From contig NZ_JANFQF010000027.1 of NCBI RefSeq assembly GCF_024438035.1, positions 1 through 64,000 on the forward strand: a DNA stretch of 64,000 nucleotides, written 5' to 3'. The position numbers and the translations under genes were made by a program. Each line of letters starts with the position of its first letter. The stretch's first letter is position 1. Under the pieces are notes generated by a model. That model ran no database searches. It worked only from the letters and a program-made list of their open reading frames with translations, and was not told the origin of the DNA. Source of the stretch: Rhodococcus tibetensis (GTDB lineage Bacteria; Actinomycetota; Actinomycetes; Mycobacteriales; Mycobacteriaceae). Shown in pieces: positions 5,105 to 57,119 of this stretch.

Positions 5105-7609
5105 TTATCCCTCGACGATGCTGAGTTCGTCGAACACGACTTCTGAAGCGGCATCGGACTCGGGGAGGTCGACGACGGCGGTCAACGCCCAGCCGTGATC
5201 GCCCTGCGGGTCCTCGAGTACCTGGCGAACGCGCCAGAACTCGGGTGCCATTTCCACCTGGAAGAGCTGGGGTCCGCGTGCGGAGGGCCCGGTGCCCACG
5301 GAGGAGTACTCGTCGAAGTAGGGAAGAAGCTGTTCTTCCCACTCGTAGGCGTCGATGCCGTCGCCGAGCGCCTCGAGTTCGGACCACCGCCGTCGCGACG
5401 CCAACTCGATGCGCCGGAACATGGCATTACGCACCATCACCCGGAATGCACGTTCGTTGGCGGAAATGGGGCGCGGAACGTCGGCGCCGAACGCGACCTG
5501 CTGGACGTCACCCTCGGCGCCCGGATCGGTAAGGGATTCCCACTCGTCGAGAAGGCTGGAATCGACCTGGCGGATGAGCTCGCCCAGCCATTCGATGAGA
5601 TCGTCGAGTTCCTCCGTCCGGGCTTCCGTCGGGACGGTCTGCCGCAGGGCACGATACGCGTCGGCGAGGTAGCGCAGCACCAGTCCCTCGGACCGAGCCA
5701 GCCCGTAGTGGCTGACGAGTTCGGCGAAAGTCATTGCTCGCTCGACCATGTCGCGCACCACCGATTTGGGGGAGAGCGCGAACTCGGAAATCCACGGGTG
5801 CCCACCTCGATACATCTCGAACGCCGGGAACAGTACCTCGGACAAGGGCTTGGGCCACGTGACCTCCTCGAGGAGCTCCATACGCTCCTCGTACTCGATC
5901 CCGTCCGCCTTCATCTGCGCCACAGCCTCGCCGCGAGCGGCATGCTGCTGTGCCATCAGCACCTGCCGCGGGTCGTCGAGGGTCGACTCGATCACCGAGA
6001 CCACGTCGAGCGCATAAGATTCCGACTCCGCGTCGAGCAGCTCCAGCGCCGCGAGCGCGAACGTCGACAGTGGCTGGTTGAGGGCGAAGTCTCGTTGGAG
6101 TTCCATGGTGAGGCGGGCCATCCGGCCATCGGCATCCGGCTCGTCGAGCCGCTGCACGATGCCTGCGTCGATCAGCCCGCGGTACAGCGACAGCGCCTTC
6201 AGGATGTGCTTCCGCTGCGCGGGTCGCGACTCGTGGTTGTCCTCGAGCAGATGCCGCATCGACTGAAAGCAATTGCCGGGTCGCGCGATCACGTTGAGCA
6301 GCATCGAATTCGACACCGAGAACCGTGAGATCAACGGCTCCGGTGAGGCTGCGACGAGGCGGTCGAACGTGGCCTCGCTCCACGAGACGAATCCGTCCGG
6401 CGCCTTCTTACGCTGCACCTTCCTCCGCTTCTTCGGGTCTTCTCCCGCTTTGGCCAGTGCCCGCAGGTTTTCGACTTCGTGTTCGGGGGCCTGGACCACG
6501 ACGGTGCCGAGGGTGTCGTACCCGGCACGGCCGGCACGTCCCGCGATCTGATGGAACTCGCGTGCACGCAGGTGACGTGTGCGGCTGCCGTCGAACTTGG
6601 TCAGACCGGTGAGGAGCACGGTGCGGATGGGAACGTTGATGCCCACGCCCAGCGTGTCGGTGCCGCAAATTACCTTGAGCAGTCCGTCCTGGGCCAGCTT
6701 CTCGATCAGCCTGCGGTACTTGGGCAGCATCCCCGCGTGGTGCACGCCGATACCGTGACGAACCAGGCGGGAGAGGGTCTTGCCGAAACCGGTGGTGAAT
6801 CGGAAACCCCCGAGCGCCTCGGCAATGGCGTCCTTCTCGGCACGGGAGCAGAAGTTCACACTGGTCAGCGCCTGGGCACGTTCGAGCGCCGCGGCCTGGG
6901 TGAAGTGCACGACGTACACCGGAGCCTGATTGGTGGTTACCAGCTCTTCGATGGTCTCGCTCACCGGGGTGGTCGCATACGAGAACATCAGGGGAACGGG
7001 TCGCTCGGTACCGGCCACGACGGTGGTGGGCCTGCCCGTGCGCCGCGTGAGGTCGGTGGAGAAGAAGTCGACCTCACCCAAGGTGGCCGACATCAGCAGG
7101 AACTGGGCGTGGGGCAGTTCGATGAGCGGTACCTGCCACGCCCAGCCGCGGTCCGGCTCGGAATAGAAATGGAACTCGTCCATCACGACTTGTCCGATGT
7201 CGGAGTCGGGTCCTTCACGCAACGCGAGGTTCGCGACAATTTCCGCCGTCGCGCAAATGATGGGTGCCCGCGAGTTGACGGCGGCGTCACCGGTCATCAT
7301 CCCGACGTTCTCCGCTCCGAACACCTCGCAGAGGGCGAAGAACTTCTCGCTCACCAGAGCCTTGATGGGGGCGGTGTAGAAGGTGCGCTTCCCGGTGGCC
7401 ATGGCGAAGAAGTGCGCGCCGACCGCAACCATGGACTTGCCGGACCCTGTGGGGGTCGCCAGGATCACGTTGGCCCCGGAGACGAGCTCCATGATGGACT
7501 CTTCCTGGGCGGGATAGAGCCGCAGACCTCGATCTTCGGTCCATGAGGTGAAGGCGTCGAAAACGGAATCGGGATCCGCGTCTCCGGGGAGAAGGTCGGG
7601 AAGAAGCAC
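5105..7609 (-). CDS. DEAD/DEAH-box (Ski2-like) helicase with DUF3516 C-terminus
   Basis: 834 residues. Helicase motifs: Q-motif-like LRLYPAQEES, Walker A ATPTGSGKS near residue 55, DEFH as Walker B, SATL as motif III, and the second RecA domain with GVGINVPIRT and QIAGRAGRAG. Motif content places it with Ski2/HelY-type ATP-dependent RNA or DNA helicases. The C-terminal about 400 residues match what I recall as DUF3516. Substrate polarity and partner are unknown; an RNA-processing or repair role is inferred. It ends 3 bases after the convergent DUF5997 stop. Confidence 0.85.
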   Translation of the reverse strand: MLLPDLLPGDADPDSVFDAFTSWTEDRGLRLYPAQEESIMELVSGANVILATPTGSGKSMVAVGAHFFAMATGKRTFYTAPIKALVSEKFFALCEVFGAENVGMMTGDAAVNSRAPIICATAEIVANLALREGPDSDIGQVVMDEFHFYSEPDRGWAWQVPLIELPHAQFLLMSATLGEVDFFSTDLTRRTGRPTTVVAGTERPVPLMFSYATTPVSETIEELVTTNQAPVYVVHFTQAAALERAQALTSVNFCSRAEKDAIAEALGGFRFTTGFGKTLSRLVRHGIGVHHAGMLPKYRRLIEKLAQDGLLKVICGTDTLGVGINVPIRTVLLTGLTKFDGSRTRHLRAREFHQIAGRAGRAGYDTLGTVVVQAPEHEVENLRALAKAGEDPKKRRKVQRKKAPDGFVSWSEATFDRLVAASPEPLISRFSVSNSMLLNVIARPGNCFQSMRHLLEDNHESRPAQRKHILKALSLYRGLIDAGIVQRLDEPDADGRMARLTMELQRDFALNQPLSTFALAALELLDAESESYALDVVSVIESTLDDPRQVLMAQQHAARGEAVAQMKADGIEYEERMELLEEVTWPKPLSEVLFPAFEMYRGGHPWISEFALSPKSVVRDMVERAMTFAELVSHYGLARSEGLVLRYLADAYRALRQTVPTEARTEELDDLIEWLGELIRQVDSSLLDEWESLTDPGAEGDVQQVAFGADVPRPISANERAFRVMVRNAMFRRIELASRRRWSELEALGDGIDAYEWEEQLLPYFDEYSSVGTGPSARGPQLFQVEMAPEFWRVRQVLEDPQGDHGWALTAVVDLPESDAASEVVFDELSIVEG

Positions 7610-7649
7610 TGCTACAGGCTAGCCGGACGGCAGTGCGTCGCTCTCGCGC

Positions 7650-8687
7650 CTATGTCGCGCTGCGTTCGTCGGAACCCATGGCGTCGAGAACGGCCATCCG
7701 GGTGGACGCACTGCCGGTGATGGTTCCTTCGCCGACGCCGGAGATCAGCATCTGCCGCCATCTGGCCTCGTCGAACGCCAGCGGGCGGGTGCTGGAGAGG
7801 AATTTCTCAATGGTGCGCAGGAACCGCATCGGGTCGTCCCGGAACGGGAAGTGACCGGCGCCACGGAAGATCTCGAGGTGCGAGCCCGGCATGGCCGCAT
7901 GAGCGAGGTGGGCGTGGCTGACCGGGATGACTGCGTCCTGATCACCCCAGATGAGTTGCACCGGGAGGTTCTCGGTGAGGTAACACCGGTCGAGCATGGT
8001 GACCACCTGACCGCGCCAGTCGACGACCGCGCGCAGTGTGCGCAGGTATGCCTCGTATGCGGTGGGATCGTAGAGTTCGGCGAGCACGCGGACGAGGTCC
8101 GGGGTGTCGTGCAGGATGGCGCCGGGGCGCAGCCGGGTTCCGTTGAGCTGGCCGACTGCGTTGCCGAGTAGCCGGACCGCAGGCATGGCCCCGGGAATGC
8201 GCAGTAGTTTGAGGGCTTCGTTCAGGACGGGGACCGACGCGAGCCGGAGCAGGGGGTGGACGTCCTTGGTGACGCCGCCGGCGGAGACGAGAACGAGGCG
8301 GTCGACCATCTGCGGGAACTGGTACGAGAACTGCATCGCGACGCCACCGCCGAGCGAGTGGCCGATCACGGTGACGTTGTCGATGCCCAGGGTGGACAGC
8401 AAATCGCGCATGCCGTTGGCGTAGGCCGCCACGGAGTAGTCGGCGCGGGGCTTGTCGGAGCGTCCGTGGCCGAGGAGGTCCGGTGCGATGACCGTGTAGT
8501 TGCGGGCCAGATGCGGGATGATCTCGGTCCAGGTGGACGAGTTGTCCCCGATTCCATGGATCAGCAGGAGGGCGGGGCCCTCACCGGCCATGCGGAACGC
8601 GCGACGGTATCCGTGGATGGTGCGAAACATCATGCGGGTTTCGGCGTCGGGAACAGGCCTGAGCTTACGAATGCGAATGTCGCTCAT
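7650..8687 (-). CDS. Alpha/beta-hydrolase fold protein (Rv2715-like)
   Basis: 345 residues. The nucleophile elbow GHSLGGG, the oxyanion segment LLIHGIGDNS, an Asp in WGDQD and a His in GAGHFPF give a complete Ser-Asp-His triad. The body (YRRAF, LLGHGRSDKPRADYSVAAY) closely matches M. tuberculosis Rv2715 from memory, including the C-terminal SNERSAT-like end (SDERSAT). The start at 8687 is supported by AGGAGG 6 bases upstream; an upstream start adds 15 unconserved residues. Substrate not known. It is followed by the helicase gene on the same strand. Confidence 0.88.
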   Translation of the reverse strand: MSDIRIRKLRPVPDAETRMMFRTIHGYRRAFRMAGEGPALLLIHGIGDNSSTWTEIIPHLARNYTVIAPDLLGHGRSDKPRADYSVAAYANGMRDLLSTLGIDNVTVIGHSLGGGVAMQFSYQFPQMVDRLVLVSAGGVTKDVHPLLRLASVPVLNEALKLLRIPGAMPAVRLLGNAVGQLNGTRLRPGAILHDTPDLVRVLAELYDPTAYEAYLRTLRAVVDWRGQVVTMLDRCYLTENLPVQLIWGDQDAVIPVSHAHLAHAAMPGSHLEIFRGAGHFPFRDDPMRFLRTIEKFLSSTRPLAFDEARWRQMLISGVGEGTITGSASTRMAVLDAMGSDERSAT

Positions 8688-48994: not shown

Positions 48995-50001
48995 TCACGC
49001 ACCGGCGTTGTTCGCGGCCGCGCTCAGTCGCGGGGTCAGCCTCTCGAGCGCCCAGGGAGTGGCGAGCACGCTGGTCTGGCTGAGGCCCGCAATCACCTGG
49101 GTGTCCGACAACGTCACCGCGGTGTCCCGCCCGAGGGCACCGAGATTCGCGTACGCCGGGTTGGCTGCGACGGTGGTGTCGTCGGCGACGAACGCGACCA
49201 CGACATCGGCGTCGATATCGGCGATGTTCTCCACCGAGATGTCGGCGAAGAACTTGTCCGCGTTGGACTCGGCGAGCTTCGACACACCCGGTGCGACCGT
49301 GAATCCGAGCTCGGTGAGCACCTGCACGCGGGGGTCGGAGGGCATGTAGACGTTCACTGTGGCAGCGTCGGTATCGAAGTTCACCACCGACACCGTCTTT
49401 CCGGCGAACTCCGGGTGTTCGGCAGCGGTCTTTGCGAGCCGGTCGTCGAGGCCGGTGACGAGAGCCTCCGCCTCGGCGGTCTTACCGAGCGCCTGACCGA
49501 TCAGGGTGGTCTGGTCCTGCCAGCTGGTCTGCCACGCCTTGTCCGGGTAGGCGACGGTGGGGGCGAGCGCGGAGAGTTTTTCGTAGGTGCCCTGGTCGAA
49601 TCCCTCGTAAGGTGCGAGGACGACATCGGGTGCAGCGAAGCCACTTGCTCGACGGGAATGGTAGTGGCGGTGTCGAGGAGGGTGGTCCGGCTCGGGTCGT
49701 AGCGGTCCTGTAGCCAGGGCATCACTCCGTTCGACTCGGCGCCGTAAGAGTACTTGGGCATGCCGACGGGTGTCTCGCCGAGCGCATACACGACATCCTG
49801 GGCGTTCCAGCCCAGGGTGACGATGCGCTCCGGTGCGGCGTCGATCGTGGTGGATCCGAAGGTGTTCTCGATGGTGACCGGAAAGCCGGCCCCGCCCCCT
49901 TCCGCGCTCGGGCCGTTGTCGTCGGTCGAGCAGGCGGTGACGAGCAGCGCGGTGCCGGCCACGGCGAGTGCGATAGCGATCGAGCGTGGGGGTGTGAACA
50001 C
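48995..50001 (-). pseudogene. Siderophore ABC transporter binding lipoprotein, broken by a frameshift
   Basis: The N-terminal half (from ATG 50001) has a signal peptide with lipobox VTAC and the FecB/FepB-type start PERIVTLGWNAQDVVYALGE. It reads in frame through VEQVASL, then shifts. The continuation APDVVLAPYEGFD lies in another frame and runs to 48995. Restoring one G in CTGGCACCC on the complement (between 49633 and 49634) rejoins both halves into a full protein of about 335 residues. A single-base loss or sequencing error explains it. No permease or ATPase gene is beside it. An IdeR box lies upstream. Confidence 0.85.
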
Positions 50002-50291: not shown

Positions 50292-51099
50292 ATGACGCTC
50301 GCCGGGGATGCCGAAGACGCGATGGTGACTCCGACTGCTCTGCACGCCCAGACGTCCGCGCGTAGATCCCGCGCAGACGAGGCACGCCGATTCGCCGACC
50401 TCCTGCGGCAGCAGATCCACGCAGGAACCTTTGCCGACCGCGGACTTCCTCCGGAATCGGAGTTGGCGCACGAGTTCGGGGTCTCCCGTAACGCTGTGCG
50501 GGACGGGTTGGCTCTCCTCAAACACGAGGGGCTCATCGACCGGGCACCGCGAGTGGGCACACACGTTGCTCGGCGCAAGTACGACCACGGACTCGACGCC
50601 CTCCTCGGATTGAGGGAAACCTTGAAGGAACACGGCGAGGTGCGAAACGACGTCCGGGTGGCCGGGGAGATCACCCCACCGCCGGCCGTCGTGCGCCGAT
50701 TGCGTGGCTCCAGGGGAATCCGCGGTCTACATCGAACGCGTCCGTTATCTCGGTGACCTCCCTCTCAGTCTCGATCTCACGTAGCTGGCGCCCGACATCG
50801 GGCGTGAGATCCTCGGCCGCGACCTCGAGGGAAACGACGTGTTCACACTGATCGAGGAGATCTGCGAGCAACCGCTCGGTTCCGCGGACGTGGCGATCGA
50901 ATCGGTGAACGCGGACTCACATTCCGCGGCCAATCTGCAGACCCCGGACGGTGCAGCGCTCCTGTTGCTCGAGCGTCTCACCCGACTCGTCGACGAGCGC
51001 CCCGTCGACCTCGAATACATTCGCATGCGCGGTGACCGAATCACCATGCGCAGCAACCTTACCCGACGTCCCGACATAACGAACTGGGAGCTCACATGA
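50292..51099 (+). pseudogene. GntR/HutC-type regulator gene, disrupted by frameshift and stop codon
   Basis: The first part has a GntR winged helix (LLRQQIHAGTFADRG, PPESELAHEFGVSRNAVRDGL), start ATG 50292 with GGAGG upstream. Near 50703-50706 the frame shifts, and the UTRA effector domain continues one frame over (APGESAVYIERVRYLGDLPL), consistent with loss of a GT dinucleotide. That frame also has TAG at 50782-50784 where a Tyr codon is expected. It then runs to 51099 (FTLIEEICEQPLG, LLERLTRLVDERPVDLEYIRMR). Two lesions make true decay likely. It is the first gene of the importer/flavoprotein operon and overlaps the ferredoxin start by 4 bases. Confidence 0.85.
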
Positions 51100-51323
51100 C
51101 ACTTGTCAACGCCCGTGCGGACGTACCGGTCACCATCGACGAGTCACTGTGCATCGAAGGGTGCACGTTGTGCGTCGAGATCTGTCCTCTCGACTCGCTG
51201 GCGATCAACCCGGACAACGGCAAAGCCTTCATGCACGTCGACGAATGCTGGTACTGCGGCCCGTGTGCTGCCCGCTGTCCCACCGGCGCCGTCACCGTGA
51301 ACATGCCGTACCTCCTCCGCTGA
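51096..51323 (+). CDS. Two-[4Fe-4S] ferredoxin, AprB-like
   Basis: 75 residues. Two cluster motifs: Cys19-x3-Cys23-x2-Cys26-x3-Cys30-Pro, and Cys51-x2-Cys54-x2-Cys57-x3-Cys61-Pro (CWYCGPCAARCP). The first has an extra residue in its first gap. The second cluster strongly resembles that of the beta subunit of APS reductase, but the long AprB C-terminal tail is absent. It probably passes electrons to or from the AprA-like flavoprotein encoded four genes downstream. ATGA overlap with the decayed gntR gene. Confidence 0.85.
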   Translation: MTLVNARADVPVTIDESLCIEGCTLCVEICPLDSLAINPDNGKAFMHVDECWYCGPCAARCPTGAVTVNMPYLLR

Positions 51324-51341
51324 GCGAAAGACACAGAAAAC

Positions 51342-52772
51342 ATGTTGCGTCCCTACTTCTTTCTTGTGCTGACCGTTACGGTTGCACTGCTCGCGACAGG
51401 CTGCTCCTTGGAAAGCACTGCCAGCGACAGCGACGATGCAGTGACCGTGGTGATCGGCTACCAATCGAAGACGATCAACACCGTCACCGCGGGAACGCTG
51501 CTGCGAGCGCAGGGCTATCTCGAACAGCGTCTGCAGGACCTGACCGAGCAGACGGGGACGACGTACTCCGTCGACTGGCAGGACTACGACACCGGCGCGC
51601 CGATCACCGCGCAGATGGTGGCCGAGAAGATCGACATCGGCTCGATGGGCGACTATCCGATGCTGATCAATGGATCGCGCACACAGGCGAATCCGCGATC
51701 GAAAATGGAGTTTCTATCGGTCACCGGGTACAACTCGAAGGGTGCCCTCAACATGGTGGTGGTCCCACCGAACTCTCCGGCCACCACCCTCGCCGAACTC
51801 GCGGGCCGGAAGGTGTCTGCCAGCGTCGGCTCGGCCGGACACGGCACCCTCGTCCGTGCGCTCGACCGCGCCGGGATCGACCCGAGCACCGGCGTCGAGG
51901 TCCTCAACCAGCAACCGCCGGTCGGCTCGTCCGCCCTCGAATCCGGCCAGGTCGAGGCATTGTCGCAGTTCGTCGCCTGGCCGGGGCTTCTGGTTTTCCA
52001 GGACAAGGCGAAACTGCTGTACGACGGCGCCGAGCTGAACACACCGACTCTGCACGGCGTCGTGGTGCGGGAGGCATACGCGGACGAGCACCCCGAAGTC
52101 GTCGATGCGTTTCTCCGTGCGCAACTCGATGCCACTCACTTCATCCGAACCGAGCCCCTCGAGGCTGCACGCATCGTCGCGGAAGACAGCGGACTGCCGC
52201 AAGAGGTGGTGTACCTGTACAACGGGCCCGGCGGTACGACGTTCGACACCACGCTCCGGCCCGAACTGGTCGAAGCATTGAAGGCCGACGTTCCGTACCT
52301 GAAGTCGATCGGTGACTTCGCGGACCTCGACGTCGGGGCCTTCGTCGACGAAGCGCCTCTGCGTGCGGCATTCGATGCCGAGGGGCAGAACTACGAGGCC
52401 ACCGTCACTACGCCCGGCAGCCCCACCGCCGTGACCGGTACCGATCCTGTGTGCGGGACGCCTGCGACGGATTCGGCTCTGGCCGGGGAAGTCTGGTTGG
52501 CCGACGCGGCGCAGACGCAGCCGGCCGCGAACCCGACGTGCTTGCTCCGGGCAGTGAAACAGGCACGCGCCGAGGGCCGTAGCATTCGCGGCGCCTACGT
52601 TCCCGATGCTGAACTCGGCACCCGCTGGTTCGCGGACAAGGCGGTGTGGGTGCGCGACGGTGACACCTTCCTGCCCTTCACCACCGATGCCGCCGCCGGC
52701 CGCTACTTGCGCGCCCACCCCGCGGGGACGGTCGTCACGTATGACCGCGCCGTGGAGGAGGTTCGGCAATGA
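51342..52772 (+). CDS. ABC importer binding lipoprotein with NosL-like C-terminal domain
   Basis: 476 residues. Signal peptide and lipobox LLATGC (Cys about 21), then an SsuA/TauA/NrtA-type binding domain (about 35-340; AEKIDIGSMGDYPMLI, TLAELAGRKVSASVGSAGHGTLV). Residues about 365-475 match the NosL metal-binding fold from memory: DPVCG with Cys371, Cys400 in the second segment, TRWFADKAVWVRDG, TFLPFTTDAAAGRYL, and GTVVTYDRAV. Ordinary binding proteins of this type stop near 330. The substrate is probably a small anion such as a sulfonate, nitrate-like ion or related compound. Confidence 0.8.
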   Translation: MLRPYFFLVLTVTVALLATGCSLESTASDSDDAVTVVIGYQSKTINTVTAGTLLRAQGYLEQRLQDLTEQTGTTYSVDWQDYDTGAPITAQMVAEKIDIGSMGDYPMLINGSRTQANPRSKMEFLSVTGYNSKGALNMVVVPPNSPATTLAELAGRKVSASVGSAGHGTLVRALDRAGIDPSTGVEVLNQQPPVGSSALESGQVEALSQFVAWPGLLVFQDKAKLLYDGAELNTPTLHGVVVREAYADEHPEVVDAFLRAQLDATHFIRTEPLEAARIVAEDSGLPQEVVYLYNGPGGTTFDTTLRPELVEALKADVPYLKSIGDFADLDVGAFVDEAPLRAAFDAEGQNYEATVTTPGSPTAVTGTDPVCGTPATDSALAGEVWLADAAQTQPAANPTCLLRAVKQARAEGRSIRGAYVPDAELGTRWFADKAVWVRDGDTFLPFTTDAAAGRYLRAHPAGTVVTYDRAVEEVRQ

Positions 52773-53629
52773 CCACCGTGCAGCCGTCGATCGTGTCGAT
52801 CGAACCCGAAGGCGCCGTGGTGCAGTCCGACCGGGTGCCATTGCCATTGCCGGCGTCTTCGCGGCGATCACGCCTTCTGCGCATCACGTCCGTCGTCGCC
52901 GCCATCGTGGCGTGGCAGCTGCTCACGGCCAACGACGTGCGGTTGTGGCTGCGATTCGACACCCTTCCCACCGTCACCGACGTCGTATCCGCATTCGCCG
53001 CCCAGCTGCGCAACGATCTCTTCTACCTCGACCTGGGTCAGTCCTTGATCCGCATACTCAGCGGATTTGCACTCGCCACCGTGGTCGGTGTGGCCGCCGG
53101 GATCGCACTCGGCAGATCGGAGCTGTTCGCCGACGTCCTCGGACCGTTGACCGAACTGGCCCGGCCGATTCCGGCGATCGCCGTGGTGCCCGTTGCCATC
53201 CTGTTGTTTCCGAGCGACGAGGCTGGGATCGTGTTCATCACGTTCGTTGCCGCGTTCTTTCCGATCACGGTGAGCACCCGGCATGCGGTCCGGGCATTGC
53301 CCACGCTGTGGGAAGACTCCGTGCGCACCCTCGGCGGTGGCCGCTGGGACGTGCTGGTCCGGGTGGTGCTCCCGGGGATCCTTCCCGGAGTGTTCGGTGG
53401 CTTGTCGGTCGGCATCGGTGTCGCGTGGATCTGCGTCATCTCCGCCGAAATGATCTCGGGCCGTCTCGGTGTCGGCTACCGCACCTGGCAGGCCTACACG
53501 ATCGTCGACTATCCCGGTGTATTCGTCGGCATGATCACCATCGGTGTCCTGGGCTTCGTCACGTCGGCGGCGGTTGAGCTGCTCGGCCGCCGCGTCACCC
53601 GCTGGTTGCCGCGAGGGGAGCGCGCATGA
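52769..53629 (+). CDS. ABC importer permease (SsuC/TauC type)
   Basis: 286 residues, about six membrane helices, with the EAA-type loop near 195-215 (RTLGGGRWDVLVRVVLPGILPGV). Family features are the aliphatic sulfonate/nitrate/taurine permeases (LARPIPAIAVVPVAILLFP, GLSVGIGVAWICVISAEMI). The start overlaps the binding-protein stop by 4 bases and its stop overlaps the ATPase start by 4 bases, so all three are translationally coupled. Acts in the cytoplasmic membrane. Confidence 0.92.
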   Translation: MTTVQPSIVSIEPEGAVVQSDRVPLPLPASSRRSRLLRITSVVAAIVAWQLLTANDVRLWLRFDTLPTVTDVVSAFAAQLRNDLFYLDLGQSLIRILSGFALATVVGVAAGIALGRSELFADVLGPLTELARPIPAIAVVPVAILLFPSDEAGIVFITFVAAFFPITVSTRHAVRALPTLWEDSVRTLGGGRWDVLVRVVLPGILPGVFGGLSVGIGVAWICVISAEMISGRLGVGYRTWQAYTIVDYPGVFVGMITIGVLGFVTSAAVELLGRRVTRWLPRGERA

Positions 53630-54420
53630 CCGCCACCACGCTCGCGACCGGAATGTCGTTGGTACTCGAAGACGTCACGTTGTCGTACACCGGAGCCCCG
53701 GTCATCCGTTCGCTGTCGCTGACCGTCGTTCCGGGTGAGATCCTGGTCCTCACTGGCCCTTCCGGCTGCGGTAAATCGACGGTGCTCCGGGCTCTGGCCG
53801 GGCTACTGCCTCCCACCGCAGGCCGGGTCGTCGCGGACGGACGGTCGGTGGTGTCCACGTCGCGGGACCGGGCCGTGGTGTTCCAGGACAATGCCCTGCT
53901 GCCGTGGCGCAGCGTCCGCTCGAACATCGAGCTTGCTCTGGCCCTTCGCGGTGAGCCGAGGAGGGGTCGCAGGGCCGCTGCCGATCGCTGGATCGAAGAA
54001 GTCGGTCTCACCGGTTTCGGGAACTTTCTTCCCAAGAACCTGTCCGGTGGCATGCGACAACGTGTGCAGTTGGCGCGTGGTCTCGCCGGAGCGCCCCGCG
54101 CCGTGATGATGGATGAGCCGTTCGGTGCTCTCGACACGCAGACCCGCGGCGTGATGCAGCGGCTTCTGGTCGACACCTGGAGCACCCATCCCACGACGGT
54201 GGTCTTCGTGACCCACGACGTGGACGAGGCGGTCCTGCTCGGGGACCGGGTGGCGGTCCTCGGCGGAGCGGGCAGGCCGCTGCGGGCACTCGTCGACATC
54301 CCCCACCCGCGCAAGCGGGCGTTCGTCGGCCACGCCGGAACCCGAGCCGCACGCGGCGAGGTACTGGCGGCGCTGGAACAGACCGATGACACCCCGACGA
54401 ACGATCCGGAGAACCGATGA
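53626..54420 (+). CDS. ABC importer ATPase (SsuB/TauB type)
   Basis: 264 residues. Walker A GPSGCGKSTVLRAL, Q-loop VVFQDNALLPWRSV (the LPW signature of the nitrate/sulfonate/taurine subfamily), signature NLSGGMRQRVQLARG, Walker B AVMMDEPFGALD, and H-loop FVTHDVDEAVLLGD. Drives the permease encoded just upstream. 4-base overlaps on both sides. Confidence 0.94.
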   Translation: MTATTLATGMSLVLEDVTLSYTGAPVIRSLSLTVVPGEILVLTGPSGCGKSTVLRALAGLLPPTAGRVVADGRSVVSTSRDRAVVFQDNALLPWRSVRSNIELALALRGEPRRGRRAAADRWIEEVGLTGFGNFLPKNLSGGMRQRVQLARGLAGAPRAVMMDEPFGALDTQTRGVMQRLLVDTWSTHPTTVVFVTHDVDEAVLLGDRVAVLGGAGRPLRALVDIPHPRKRAFVGHAGTRAARGEVLAALEQTDDTPTNDPENR

Positions 54421-57119
54421 ATATCCCCGACCTTGCCGAGACCGTGCGTCTCGACTGCGATGTACTCGTCATCGGCGGCGGTACAGCCGGCACGATGGCT
54501 GCGCTGACAGCAGCCGAAAACGGCGCGAACGTCCTGCTTCTCGAGAAGGCACACGTGCGGCACTCGGGAGCCCTCGCCATGGGCATGGACGGGGTCAACA
54601 ACGCTGTCATCCCCGGCAAGGCCGAACCCGAGGACTACGTCGCGGAGATCACCCGCGCCAACGACGGAATCGTCAATCAGCGGACGGTCTATCAGACCGC
54701 GACTCGCGGTTTCGCCATGGTGCAGCGACTCGAGAAGTACGGAGTGAAGTTCGAGAAGGACGAGTACGGAGAGTACGCGGTGCGGCGCGTGCATCGCTCC
54801 GGTTCCTATGTGCTGCCGATGCCCGAGGGCAAGGACGTGAAGAAGGCGCTGTACCGCGTGCTGCGTCAGCGGAAGATGCGGGAGAAGATCCGCATCGAGA
54901 ACCGGTTGATGCCTGTTCGCGTCCTGACGGAGAACCGCCGGGCGGTCGGGGCAGCCGCGTTGAACACCCGGACGGGGGCGTTCGTCGCAGTCGGCGCGAA
55001 GGCCGTGATCCTTGCGACCGGTCCCTGCGGCCGATTGGGACTTCCGGCCTCCGGATACCTCTACGGCACCTACGAGAATCCGACGAACGCCGGAGACGGC
55101 TACTCGATGGCGTACCACGCGGGCGCCGAGCTCAGCGGTATCGAATGCTTCCAGATCAATCCTTTGATCAAGGACTACAACGGGCCTGCCTGCGCATACG
55201 TAGCGAACCCCTTCGGCGGCTACCAGGTCAATGCGCACGGCGAACGGTTTGTCGATTCCGACTACTGGTCAGGGCAGATGATGAGCGAGGTCAAGAGCGA
55301 GATCGAATCGGCCCGTGGACCCATCTATCTCAAGGTGAGCCACCTTCCGGAGGAAACGCTCGACACCCTGGAATCGATCCTTCACACCACCGAGCGCCCC
55401 ACCCGCGGCACGTTCCACGCGGGCCGCGGTCACGACTACCGCAGCCACGACATCGAGATGCACATCTCCGAGATCGGGCTCTGCAGTGGACATTCCGCGT
55501 CCGGCGTATGGGTGGACGAGCACGGTGCCACCACCGTGCCCGGGTTGTACGCCGCCGGCGACCTCGCCTGCGTTCCGCACAACTACATGATCGGCGCGTT
55601 CGTGTACGGCGACCTCGCCGGTGCACACGCGACCGGTACGCTGCCCGGCACTCCGGCGCCCACGCTGCTGCCCGAAGACCAGTTGAAGGACGCGCATGAG
55701 CTGATCTACCGCCCGTTGCGTAACCCGGATGGCCCCCCGCAACCGCAGGTCGAATACAAGCTGCGCCGATTCGTCAACGACTATGTCGCACCGCCGAAGA
55801 GCGCCACCAAGCTGTCCATTGCCGTGGAGACCTTCGAACGGATGGAGCGCGAGATCGCCGAGATGGGTGCCACCACCCCGCACGAGTTGATGCGCTGCGC
55901 GGAGGTCACCTTCATTCGCGACTGCGCCGAGATGGCGTCCCGCAGTTCCCTCACCAGGACCGAGAGTCGCTGGGGCCTCTACCATGAGCGCGCCGACCTA
56001 CCGGAGTCGAGCGACGAGAAATGGGGATATCACCTGAACCTGCGTCGCAGCGCGGACCGGGAGATGGAGTTCTTCAAGAGACCGGTGGCTCCCTACTTCG
56101 TTCCGGTTCCCGGTCTCGACTCCCTTCCGCCGCTGGACCAGACCGTGATCCAGGTGTCGCAGCCGCCGCTCGCCGGAGGACGCGCGCCGGTCGAGGAGCG
56201 CTCGCGTATCGCGGCGTCGGTCCGTCAGGAACCGTCGTCGCCCGACCTCGTCGCACTGCTCGGCCTCGATGCACCCAGCATCGACGAGTTGGACCCGTAC
56301 CTCCGAAATTCCGATCCGCAGGTACGGGTGACGGCGCTGTCGGTGCTGACCGAGGGAACCCCCGACGGCTTCGCGGGAGCCCTCGTCGCGGCACTCGGTG
56401 ACGGCGCCGTCGAAGTCCGCCGCGCCGCCGCGGGCGGGCTGCGCGAATTGGTCGAGGTGCTCACGTCTGCCGATGGGCTGGGGGCACATTTGGAGTCGGG
56501 TGACGCGGTTGTCCGGGCTGCGGTGGTCGACGTGCTGCGTGCACTGCGCGCGGGGTCGGCGGACCAGTTTCTCGCGGCGTTGTCCGACCCGGACCATCAC
56601 GTCCGCATCGAAGCGGTCCGCGGACTGGTGTCGCTGGACAGGTGGGAGTCGGTGGCGTCGGGAGCGCGGGACGAGAACCGGGAGGTGCGAATCACCGTGG
56701 CGCACGGGCTCGCTACCATCGGTCTCGGTGGACTCGACGCCGTGAGGGCGCTGGCCGGTGACCGCGACCCGCTGGTGCGGGCGGCCGCGCTGACGGCATT
56801 CGCTGCATTGGGGTGCCGCGGCGAGGAAGATGTCACCCTGGCCGTTGCTGCGCTACGCGAATCCGCCTGGCAGGTACGTCAGGGCGCGGCACGCGGACTG
56901 GCCGGAGCGGAGCCGAGTATTGCCGTGCCCGCTCTCGCGGAAGCGTTGCGCGATCCGCATCTCGATGTGCGGAAGGCTGCCGTGCTCTCACTCGGACGGT
57001 GGGTCGGCGATCGGACCGCGGCCCTGGCTCTGACCGTGGCCCTGGACGACACGGATGCCGACGTGCGGGCCTACGCACGGCAGGCGTTGAGCGCGGCGAA
57101 CCGCATTCCGGTCGCCTGA
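54417..57119 (+). CDS. AprA-like FAD oxidoreductase fused to HEAT repeats
   Basis: 900 residues. 1-about 600 is a FAD_binding_2 flavoprotein: Gly20-x-Gly-x-x-Gly25 for FAD, VRHSGALAMGMDG, EPEDYVAEITRANDGIVNQRTV, CSGHSASGVW with His359, and LYAAGDLACVPH. These resemble the alpha subunit of APS reductase (AprA) more than fumarate reductase; His359 aligns with the AprA active-site His398 from memory. About 620-900 is a HEAT-repeat solenoid (AALGDGAVEVRRAAAGGL, DPHLDVRKAAVLSLGRWVGD). It is the last gene of the operon; the ferredoxin is its likely electron partner. The substrate is unknown. Confidence 0.85.
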   Translation: MNIPDLAETVRLDCDVLVIGGGTAGTMAALTAAENGANVLLLEKAHVRHSGALAMGMDGVNNAVIPGKAEPEDYVAEITRANDGIVNQRTVYQTATRGFAMVQRLEKYGVKFEKDEYGEYAVRRVHRSGSYVLPMPEGKDVKKALYRVLRQRKMREKIRIENRLMPVRVLTENRRAVGAAALNTRTGAFVAVGAKAVILATGPCGRLGLPASGYLYGTYENPTNAGDGYSMAYHAGAELSGIECFQINPLIKDYNGPACAYVANPFGGYQVNAHGERFVDSDYWSGQMMSEVKSEIESARGPIYLKVSHLPEETLDTLESILHTTERPTRGTFHAGRGHDYRSHDIEMHISEIGLCSGHSASGVWVDEHGATTVPGLYAAGDLACVPHNYMIGAFVYGDLAGAHATGTLPGTPAPTLLPEDQLKDAHELIYRPLRNPDGPPQPQVEYKLRRFVNDYVAPPKSATKLSIAVETFERMEREIAEMGATTPHELMRCAEVTFIRDCAEMASRSSLTRTESRWGLYHERADLPESSDEKWGYHLNLRRSADREMEFFKRPVAPYFVPVPGLDSLPPLDQTVIQVSQPPLAGGRAPVEERSRIAASVRQEPSSPDLVALLGLDAPSIDELDPYLRNSDPQVRVTALSVLTEGTPDGFAGALVAALGDGAVEVRRAAAGGLRELVEVLTSADGLGAHLESGDAVVRAAVVDVLRALRAGSADQFLAALSDPDHHVRIEAVRGLVSLDRWESVASGARDENREVRITVAHGLATIGLGGLDAVRALAGDRDPLVRAAALTAFAALGCRGEEDVTLAVAALRESAWQVRQGAARGLAGAEPSIAVPALAEALRDPHLDVRKAAVLSLGRWVGDRTAALALTVALDDTDADVRAYARQALSAANRIPVA

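Follow-up and report, generated by a model that had tools for sequence, protein, structure and literature searches.

The DNA analysed here, hereafter the window, is a stretch of 64,000 nucleotides from Rhodococcus tibetensis (positions 1 to 64,000 of the forward strand of contig NZ_JANFQF010000027.1). It carries an operon composed of a broken gntR gene followed by five intact genes that encode, in this order, a ferredoxin, a binding lipoprotein, an ATP-binding cassette (ABC) permease, an ABC ATPase and a large flavin adenine dinucleotide (FAD) protein. This operon is real and widespread. We propose, with a probability of about 0.4, that it forms a sulfur-scavenging unit, which would import a sulfate ester (or a related sulfo-compound) and release sulfite from it by reduction; cargo, direction (reduction) and product are what we infer. 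In a narrower and more doubtful version of this proposal, the FAD/Fe-S pair might be a "reductive sulfatase", an adenosine 5'-phosphosulfate (APS)-reductase-like enzyme that would convert sulfate esters or sulfamates, once imported, straight to sulfite with reduced ferredoxin, so that neither hydrolysis to sulfate nor the re-activation of that sulfate at the expense of ATP would be needed, within a widespread importer-enzyme cassette that swaps with an ordinary sulfatase. The system is built from known kinds of parts; reductive desulfation, a putative assignment, would be new enzymology.

Conservation of the operon

All operon genes lie on the + strand and overlap by 4 bases at four of the five junctions, the remaining one being an 18-base gap between the ferredoxin and binding-protein genes. 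The gene positions, the chaining by overlaps and the decay of gntR, all claimed in an earlier note made from the letters of this DNA alone, are borne out by the reading frames, the Pfam matches and the relatives. The flavoprotein was detected in 46 of 394 genomes of the class (45 of them over the cut-off), representing 10 of 138 genera. The ferredoxin was found in exactly the same 46 genomes, and the binding protein in these 46 plus two others (G049 and G138). When 40 loci of the class were fetched with their flanks, gntR, ferredoxin, binding protein, permease, ATPase and flavoprotein were together in 39, the exception (L052) being cut by the start of its contig; in L074, gntR has the opposite orientation. 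Among the best 80 loci from named genomes, which are all from Mycobacteriales because they are the 80 best, 75 have all genes in order and three others are cut by contig ends. The togetherness of the gene set is far beyond chance, and the co-occurrence across actinobacteria on which the earlier note had made its proposal depend is thus observed. It should be noted that three loci (L271, L072 and L261) hold about 1.3-4.8 kb of extra DNA inside the operon, either at the ferredoxin/binding protein junction or before the flavoprotein.

The system is not confined to actinobacteria, which corrects the earlier note: 51 plasmid records, mostly from proteobacteria and cyanobacteria, hold a relative. 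In the regions read from 16 of these records, flavoprotein, ferredoxin and HEAT repeats are present in all 16, and binding protein, permease and ATPase in 13. An Mrp/NBP35 or DUF971 gene is found in 11 of the 16 regions, counting as DUF971 two gamma-butyrobetaine hydroxylase-like genes that we presume to belong there; these neighbours are taken as help in Fe-S assembly.

Sister operons that carry a sulfatase

A family-wide search for the binding protein returned 109 places in 103 of 341 genomes. The binding-protein locus of G049 adjoins a sulfatase, as do flavoprotein-less copies in G149 and G031, whereas that of G138 (locus L238) does not. Loci L237, L239 and L240 encode a paralogous GntR (43-45% identical to that of locus L038), a paralogous binding protein (45-48%) with the same C-terminal extension, a permease and an ATPase, as in the operon described here. 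They also carry a sulfatase with a CTPTR motif, the sulfatase-activating formylglycine-generating enzyme (FGE) and a SulP permease, Pfam identities (including Pfam Sulfatase) having been obtained for L237 and L240.

To this set of four (L237 to L240) we added 40 of the 109 places, picked rather than drawn at random and including those nearest to the protein of L237; since three of the four are themselves among the 109, the comparison of 44 loci leaves 66 places outside it. Thirty-two loci have the flavoprotein without a sulfatase, nine have a sulfatase without the flavoprotein, three have neither and none has both. Two of the three loci with neither (L263 and L264) are on short contigs and the third is L238. 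The sulfatase loci (L237, L239, L240 and L243-L248) all have SulP and a GntR match, and FGE was found in seven of the nine. Compared with the operon of the window, these sister operons thus pair the transporter with a formylglycine sulfatase, FGE and SulP, whereas the flavoprotein and the ferredoxin were not found there. A GyrB homolog also lies near all nine sulfatase loci, the L237 copy (6393-8315) being over the cut-off of the gyrB model; this is an odd companion for a sulfatase.

The nine sulfatase-type binding proteins form one clade (support 100/100) that joins the flavoprotein-type rows of layout B, described below, with support 99/98; the sulfatase-type clade is therefore nested inside the flavoprotein-type importer set. 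The two types show a fixed difference in a single column, although this measure is weak, as it ignores variable columns. No signal peptide was seen by eye on the sulfatases of L237 and L240, so that these enzymes would depend on import of their substrate. The simplest interpretation is that the cargo of the importer bears a sulfo group bound through S-O (or S-N) and that reduction by the AprA-like pair would achieve what the sulfatase achieves through hydrolysis. On the strength of these sister operons, a sulfate ester is the leading cargo candidate.

The flavoprotein and its ferredoxin partner

The 900-residue product of the last gene (54417-57119) matches NCBIfam NF010374 (PRK13800) over its whole length with 1760 bits, against a cut-off of 1196. 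This family is named only "fumarate reductase/succinate dehydrogenase flavoprotein subunit". The score was 853 bits with NF006131 (PRK08275), and the cut-offs were not reached with the APS-reductase alpha model NF005331 (PRK06854 type; 264 bits, cut-off 557), TIGR02061 aprA (128 bits, cut-off 642) or TIGR01812 SdhA/FrdA (135 bits, cut-off 567). By sequence, the closest solved structure is the alpha subunit of an archaeal 3'-phosphoadenosine 5'-phosphosulfate (PAPS) reductase (PDB 8a8o_A, E 5e-56), followed by the alpha subunit of APS reductase, AprA (E 2e-30), and then by succinate dehydrogenase (SDH).

In a tree of 46 flavoprotein rows (44 different), the group of the window (14 rows) and the PRK08275 group (13 rows) form one clade (95/100) apart from the clade of Apr and PAPS reductase (PAPSR) proteins (100/100), and two PAPSR-like rows group with Apr rather than with the family of the window. 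The earlier note had held that a place inside ordinary SDH or fumarate reductase (FRD) clades would speak against its proposal; the flavoprotein lies outside the two rows of its own genome (L002 and L003) that we took as SDH-like. The deep order of this tree is uncertain because several branches are long.

Residues were compared between 16 rows of the family, five Apr/PAPSR-like rows and the SDH-like rows. Asn61, Lys252, Asp253 and His359 are common to the family and to all five Apr/PAPSR-like rows. Two further residues, Trp234 and Arg265 of AprA, which we take to belong to its substrate pocket, are Trp and Arg in 5/5 Apr/PAPSR-like rows and are replaced by Tyr219 and Leu250 in 16/16 family rows. 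At six positions (Glu220, Gln246, Asn248, Arg327, Arg330 and Asn389), all family rows carry one and the same residue, which differs from that of Apr/PAPSR. The active site is thus partly conserved relative to AprA/PAPSR, with two pocket residues replaced. As for SDH, the SHT and GANRLG motifs of L002 stand opposite gaps in the family rows, the Arg of its PRD motif stands opposite Ser or Gly, and the His of its HPT motif corresponds to Asn248. We assume here that the His of SHT binds FAD in SDH and that the Arg residues of PRD and GANRLG have roles there as well. Profile, tree and motifs lead us to reject an SDH or FRD identity of the flavoprotein, and cut-offs, tree and pocket residues that of an APS or PAPS reductase. 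The earlier description of an AprA-like FAD protein therefore stands as far as likeness goes, the protein being closest to the AprA/PAPS reductase side by profile and PDB match, and fails if taken as membership.

The ferredoxin agrees with its earlier description as a two-cluster protein with an AprB-like second motif, a CWxC motif being found in the alignment. Among its 122 PDB matches are PAPS and APS reductase beta subunits. Aligned with AprB and PAPSR-beta open reading frames (ORFs), the ferredoxins of the family (75-81 residues) keep the Trp of AprB in a CWYC or CWFC motif and lack the AprB tail, and the score with TIGR02060 aprB is 29.8 bits for a cut-off of 136. The make-up of AprAB, a FAD subunit with a two-cluster ferredoxin partner, recurs here: the two genes share an operon, and both occur in an identical set of 46 genomes out of 394. 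The pair is thus built like an APS/PAPS reductase, yet by profiles, tree and pocket residues it does not belong among them.

The last third of the FAD protein consists of HEAT repeats (Pfam HEAT_2, 97 bits, four stretches). HEAT is a separate gene in layout B (L074-L077, with Pfam matches obtained on L074 and L076) and in 15 of the 16 annotated plasmid regions, the sixteenth (L166) having it fused; HEAT therefore looks like a working part.

The importer

The binding protein, whose lipobox was read from the sequence, matches Pfam NMT1 (44.6 bits) and, under the cut-off of 163.5, NCBIfam SsuA_fam (126 bits); a PDB match is a taurine-binding protein (E 1e-17). The permease matches Pfam BPD_transp_1 (77.9 bits), its closest NCBIfam models being SaoP, nitrate, taurine and sulfonate permeases, and the ATPase matches Pfam ABC_tran (105 bits), the closest models being taurine, nitrate and sulfonate ATPases, all below their cut-offs. 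The operon thus has the SsuABC/TauABC architecture of one binding protein (NMT1), one permease (BPD_transp_1) and one ATPase (ABC_tran), and none of the curated cut-offs of the SsuA/TauA, SsuC/TauC and SsuB/TauB models is reached. In line with the earlier note, which saw no adjacent sulfonate-monooxygenase gene, the Pfam scan shows no monooxygenase gene inside the operon.

At its C-terminus, the binding protein is extended by about 145 residues, which may form a NosL-family domain. A Pfam scan gave no match in this part of the window protein, and NosL was touched in only 3 of 45 close relatives, with a best E of 0.034. Two of six aligned C-termini passed the 24-bit cut-off of Pfam NosL (PF05573), namely those of Paraburkholderia sprentiae (L173, 29.3 bits) and Leptolyngbya (L167, 33.7 bits); the other four scored 13.6 to 23.4 bits. 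When 148 genomes of the class were scanned with NosL, the best match (18 bits, under the cut-off) and two more of the 15 matches listed were this C-terminal domain. A role of the domain as copper carrier was considered and is not proposed, since Met residues that are copper ligands in NosL are missing from the window domain. We infer that the HEAT and NosL parts serve assembly or docking. The five intact genes of the earlier gene set stand, and these two domains, which it had missed, belong to the system as well.

Genomic neighbourhood

Another sulfur gene is located within about 8 kb of the operon in 9 of the 16 plasmid regions: TauE/SafE exporters in L165, L167, L168 and L172, a TSUP transporter in L159, and sulfonate or sulfate ABC parts, TauD or LLM-type monooxygenases in L158, L162, L169 and L170. 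Twelve control stretches, taken far from the operon in 12 of the 16 plasmids (four plasmids having no control), contain such a gene once (L227, TauD and SulP), giving a one-sided Fisher p of 0.011 for key words that were picked after the regions had been seen and for regions that are not all independent, some records being close kin. Under a looser rule, two more controls would count, through metE (L225) and an FGE-type protein (L230).

Two actinobacterial loci (L076:12455-13447 and one mycobacterial locus) have a Pfam Cons_hypoth698 protein near the operon, a family we take to be YeiH. YeiH or putative sulfate exporters are also found near the operon in three cyanobacterial plasmids (L165, L167 and L172).

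Regarding electron supply, FdxA and a ferredoxin-NADP reductase adjoin the operon in L164. On plasmid pTcM1 of Acidithiobacillus caldus (L160:10574-14035), the neighbours of the core are FdxA and a large FAD-dependent oxidoreductase, which is perhaps an electron donor. Elsewhere in the genome of R. tibetensis, genes of the PAPS_reduct and NIR_SIR families are present (the latter being either sulfite or nitrite reductases, undistinguished here), and two of these genes lie side by side on contig 4; sulfite can therefore probably be assimilated.

Features of the locus

Table 1. Features of the operon in the R. tibetensis window
Feature	Position	Strand	Evidence
gntR/UTRA regulator gene, broken (one frame change and one in-frame stop)	50292..51099	+	Pfam GntR and UTRA
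75-residue two-[4Fe-4S] ferredoxin, AprB-like CWYC second motif, without the C-terminal tail of AprB	51096..51323	+	Pfam Fer4 families, PDB matches, alignment
Binding lipoprotein, SsuA/TauA/NrtA-type (NMT1) domain at about residues 36-292	51342..52772	+	Pfam, NCBIfam, PDB, lipobox
Putative C-terminal NosL-family domain of the binding protein	52326..52772	+	Two of six homologous C-termini pass Pfam NosL, the window copy does not
ABC permease	52769..53629	+	Pfam BPD_transp_1
ABC ATPase	53626..54420	+	Pfam ABC_tran
FAD domain of the flavoprotein (FAD_binding_2 and Succ_DH_flav_C)	54417..56140	+	NCBIfam, PDB, tree
HEAT-repeat C-terminal domain of the flavoprotein	56250..57119	+	Pfam HEAT_2

The two halves of gntR, GntR (50292-50756; Pfam match of 52 bits) and UTRA (50839-51099; Pfam match of 42 bits on 50839-51096), are in different frames and an in-frame stop precedes the second half. 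Among 120 loci searched, both halves were found in 115 relatives, and the gene is open between them in 113. Just upstream, a lipoprotein-like gene (48995-50001, - strand) seems to be split over two frames (48995-49393 and 49501-50001), neither piece having a Pfam match. The two neighbouring genes thus look broken, by local decay or by errors of the draft sequence. Regarding a shared GntR operator, no exact palindrome recurs in more than 10 of 116 upstream stretches.

Proposed function and alternatives

In the proposed unit, the binding lipoprotein, the permease and the ATPase would import a small organic anion that bears a sulfo group; sulfate esters (R-O-SO3-) or close relatives, for instance sulfamates, are the most likely candidates. 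In the cytosol, the two-cluster ferredoxin would hand electrons on to the FAD protein, and the reduced flavin of the latter would attack the sulfur through N5, as proposed for APS/PAPS reductases (for PAPS reductase, PMC10322725). Sulfite and the desulfated alcohol or amine would then be released; the sulfite could be assimilated by an ordinary sulfite reductase or exported, the exporters handling the excess.

Several observations weigh against this proposal. The main chemical objections are that the leaving group of an alkyl sulfate is far poorer than that of APS and that the Arg matching AprA Arg265 is Leu throughout the family rows, so that the mechanism of AprA may not carry over. In addition, Gln246 and Asn389 carry the SDH-like letter in both alignments, and Arg330 does so in one of the two. 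With 45-48% identity, the two types of binding protein might have different ligands even though only one fixed difference separates them, and in L238 (G138 contig 6, 2491-8689, - strand) the importer is joined to a Melibiase/GH31-type protein and, in our reading, to a galactokinase-like gene, without a sulfatase, neighbours which hint at a sugar-linked cargo. Three of the 16 plasmid regions have no importer beside the enzyme, and in L146 and L152, among the best 80 loci, the ferredoxin directly precedes the flavoprotein with no transporter genes between them, so that the enzyme core can persist without an importer beside it. Finally, the sulfur neighbourhood is affected by the late choice of its key words, and no outside neighbour, sulfur-related or other, is conserved across actinobacterial families: among greedily chosen ORFs of at least 110 residues in the actinobacterial flanks, no cluster spans more than two lineage groups, the largest such cluster comprising five loci.

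The same unit could instead handle a sulfonate, whose C-S bond would be cleaved reductively to sulfite without oxygen. The importer parts are indeed closest to sulfonate and taurine systems, and sulfite exporters and LLM/TauD-type sulfur genes lie near the operon in several regions, but the sulfatase of the nested sister operons is an enzyme for S-O or S-N bonds, not for C-S bonds, and flavin attack on an unactivated sulfonate is chemically hard; we regard this cargo as rather unlikely. It is distinctly unlikely that the flavoprotein performs a fumarate-reductase-like redox reaction on C-C bonds of an imported organic anion, the sulfur neighbours being incidental. Many C-C redox enzymes belong to this fold family, NMT1-type binding proteins take many anions, and six invariant residues differ from Apr/PAPSR, with Gln246 and Asn389 being SDH-like; however, this would have to accommodate the missing Arg opposite those of the SDH PRD and GANRLG motifs, the Asn248 in place of the HPT His, an AprB-type ferredoxin partner, the retention of Asn61 and His359 as in Apr/PAPSR, the swap with a sulfatase and the sulfur neighbourhood. 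That the operon encodes an extra assimilatory APS or PAPS reductase hardly seems credible: although a PAPS reductase is the closest solved structure, the flavoprotein is below the cut-offs of NF005331 and TIGR02061, falls in a separate clade and has the pocket Arg and Trp replaced in 16/16 rows, genes of the PAPS_reduct family are already in the genome, and a nucleotide formed inside the cell would need no importer.

Two other explanations draw on the operon AUO97_RS16340-RS16365 of Acinetobacter baumannii, studied in 2026 as a "GntR-ABC efflux" system; that study describes the transporter as an efflux pump which belongs to the OxyR regulon, is activated by GntR and contributes to H2O2 tolerance (PMC13104710). 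An oxidative direction, such as the oxidation of sulfite or another reduced sulfur anion for detoxification, would be in line with the H2O2 response reported for that operon, whose GntR is reported to be needed for H2O2 tolerance, and with the reversibility of dissimilatory APS reductases (PMC10322725). We consider it improbable, since the FdxA and ferredoxin-NADP reductase genes beside L164 suggest electron supply and an importer with sulfite exporters better fits sulfite production. That the transporter exports compounds for oxidative-stress and drug tolerance, as published from the knockout phenotypes of A. baumannii (PMC13104710), is very improbable, because Ssu/Tau/Nrt-type systems composed of a binding lipoprotein, a single permease and a single ATPase are built as importers. 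A shortage of sulfur during oxidative stress, a condition that induces other sulfur importers in A. baumannii, could also account for these phenotypes: the taurine, sulfate and sulfonate uptake systems of this species are reported to rise with H2O2, and the taurine and sulfate ones to fall with sulfide (PMC7315123). The operon is likewise reported to be induced by H2O2 (PMC13104710), which fits a sulfur role.

Taken together, these results partly support the interpretation of the earlier note, uptake of a sulfur-containing or similar anion coupled to an APS-reductase-like redox pair, which appears right in outline and is sharpened here. Its suggestion that the system is undescribed has to be narrowed: NCBI models of the flavoprotein exist (NF010374 and NF006131) and the A. 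baumannii operon has been studied, so that the system is not wholly undescribed, the published reading (PMC13104710) being another one. No other description of the system was found in the literature searched, whose coverage leaves out most subscription papers. If the reductive proposal is true, many soil, plant-associated and aquatic bacteria would have an unrecognised route from organic sulfate to sulfite that needs no sulfate activation, a well-populated NCBI family would gain a role and the "efflux" operon of A. baumannii would be recast as one for sulfur acquisition. The two kinds of sister operons would then be a matched reductive and hydrolytic pair behind one importer type, a claim that is directly testable.

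Comparison with known systems

The A. baumannii operon has the same gene order as the operon described here. Four of the six spacings given in PMC13104710 (241, 28, 19 and 34 bp) equal those of L159, and the other two (74 vs 20 and 16 vs 1) differ by multiples of three, as other choices of start codon would give. It has been published as an efflux pump, whereas we read the transporter as an importer.

With SsuABC, TauABC and nitrate importers, the operon shares the type of binding protein, permease and ATPase; it differs from them in that its parts are below the curated cut-offs, its binding protein bears a putative NosL-family domain and it has no monooxygenase or dioxygenase gene. The PAPS reductase of Methanothermococcus thermolithotrophicus (8a8o) and AprAB likewise combine a FAD alpha subunit of the fumarate-reductase fold with a small two-[4Fe-4S] CWxC beta subunit, and they share Asn61, Lys252, Asp253 and His359 with the flavoprotein described here. 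By contrast, the latter forms a separate clade with Leu and Tyr in place of Arg265 and Trp234 (16/16), and its operon has a tail-less ferredoxin, a HEAT domain and a tie to an importer. The AtsRBC sulfate-ester importer of Pseudomonas, which goes with an arylsulfatase, is an Ssu-like importer coupled to sulfate-ester cleavage, as we propose here, but it works with a hydrolytic sulfatase and has no AprAB-like pair.

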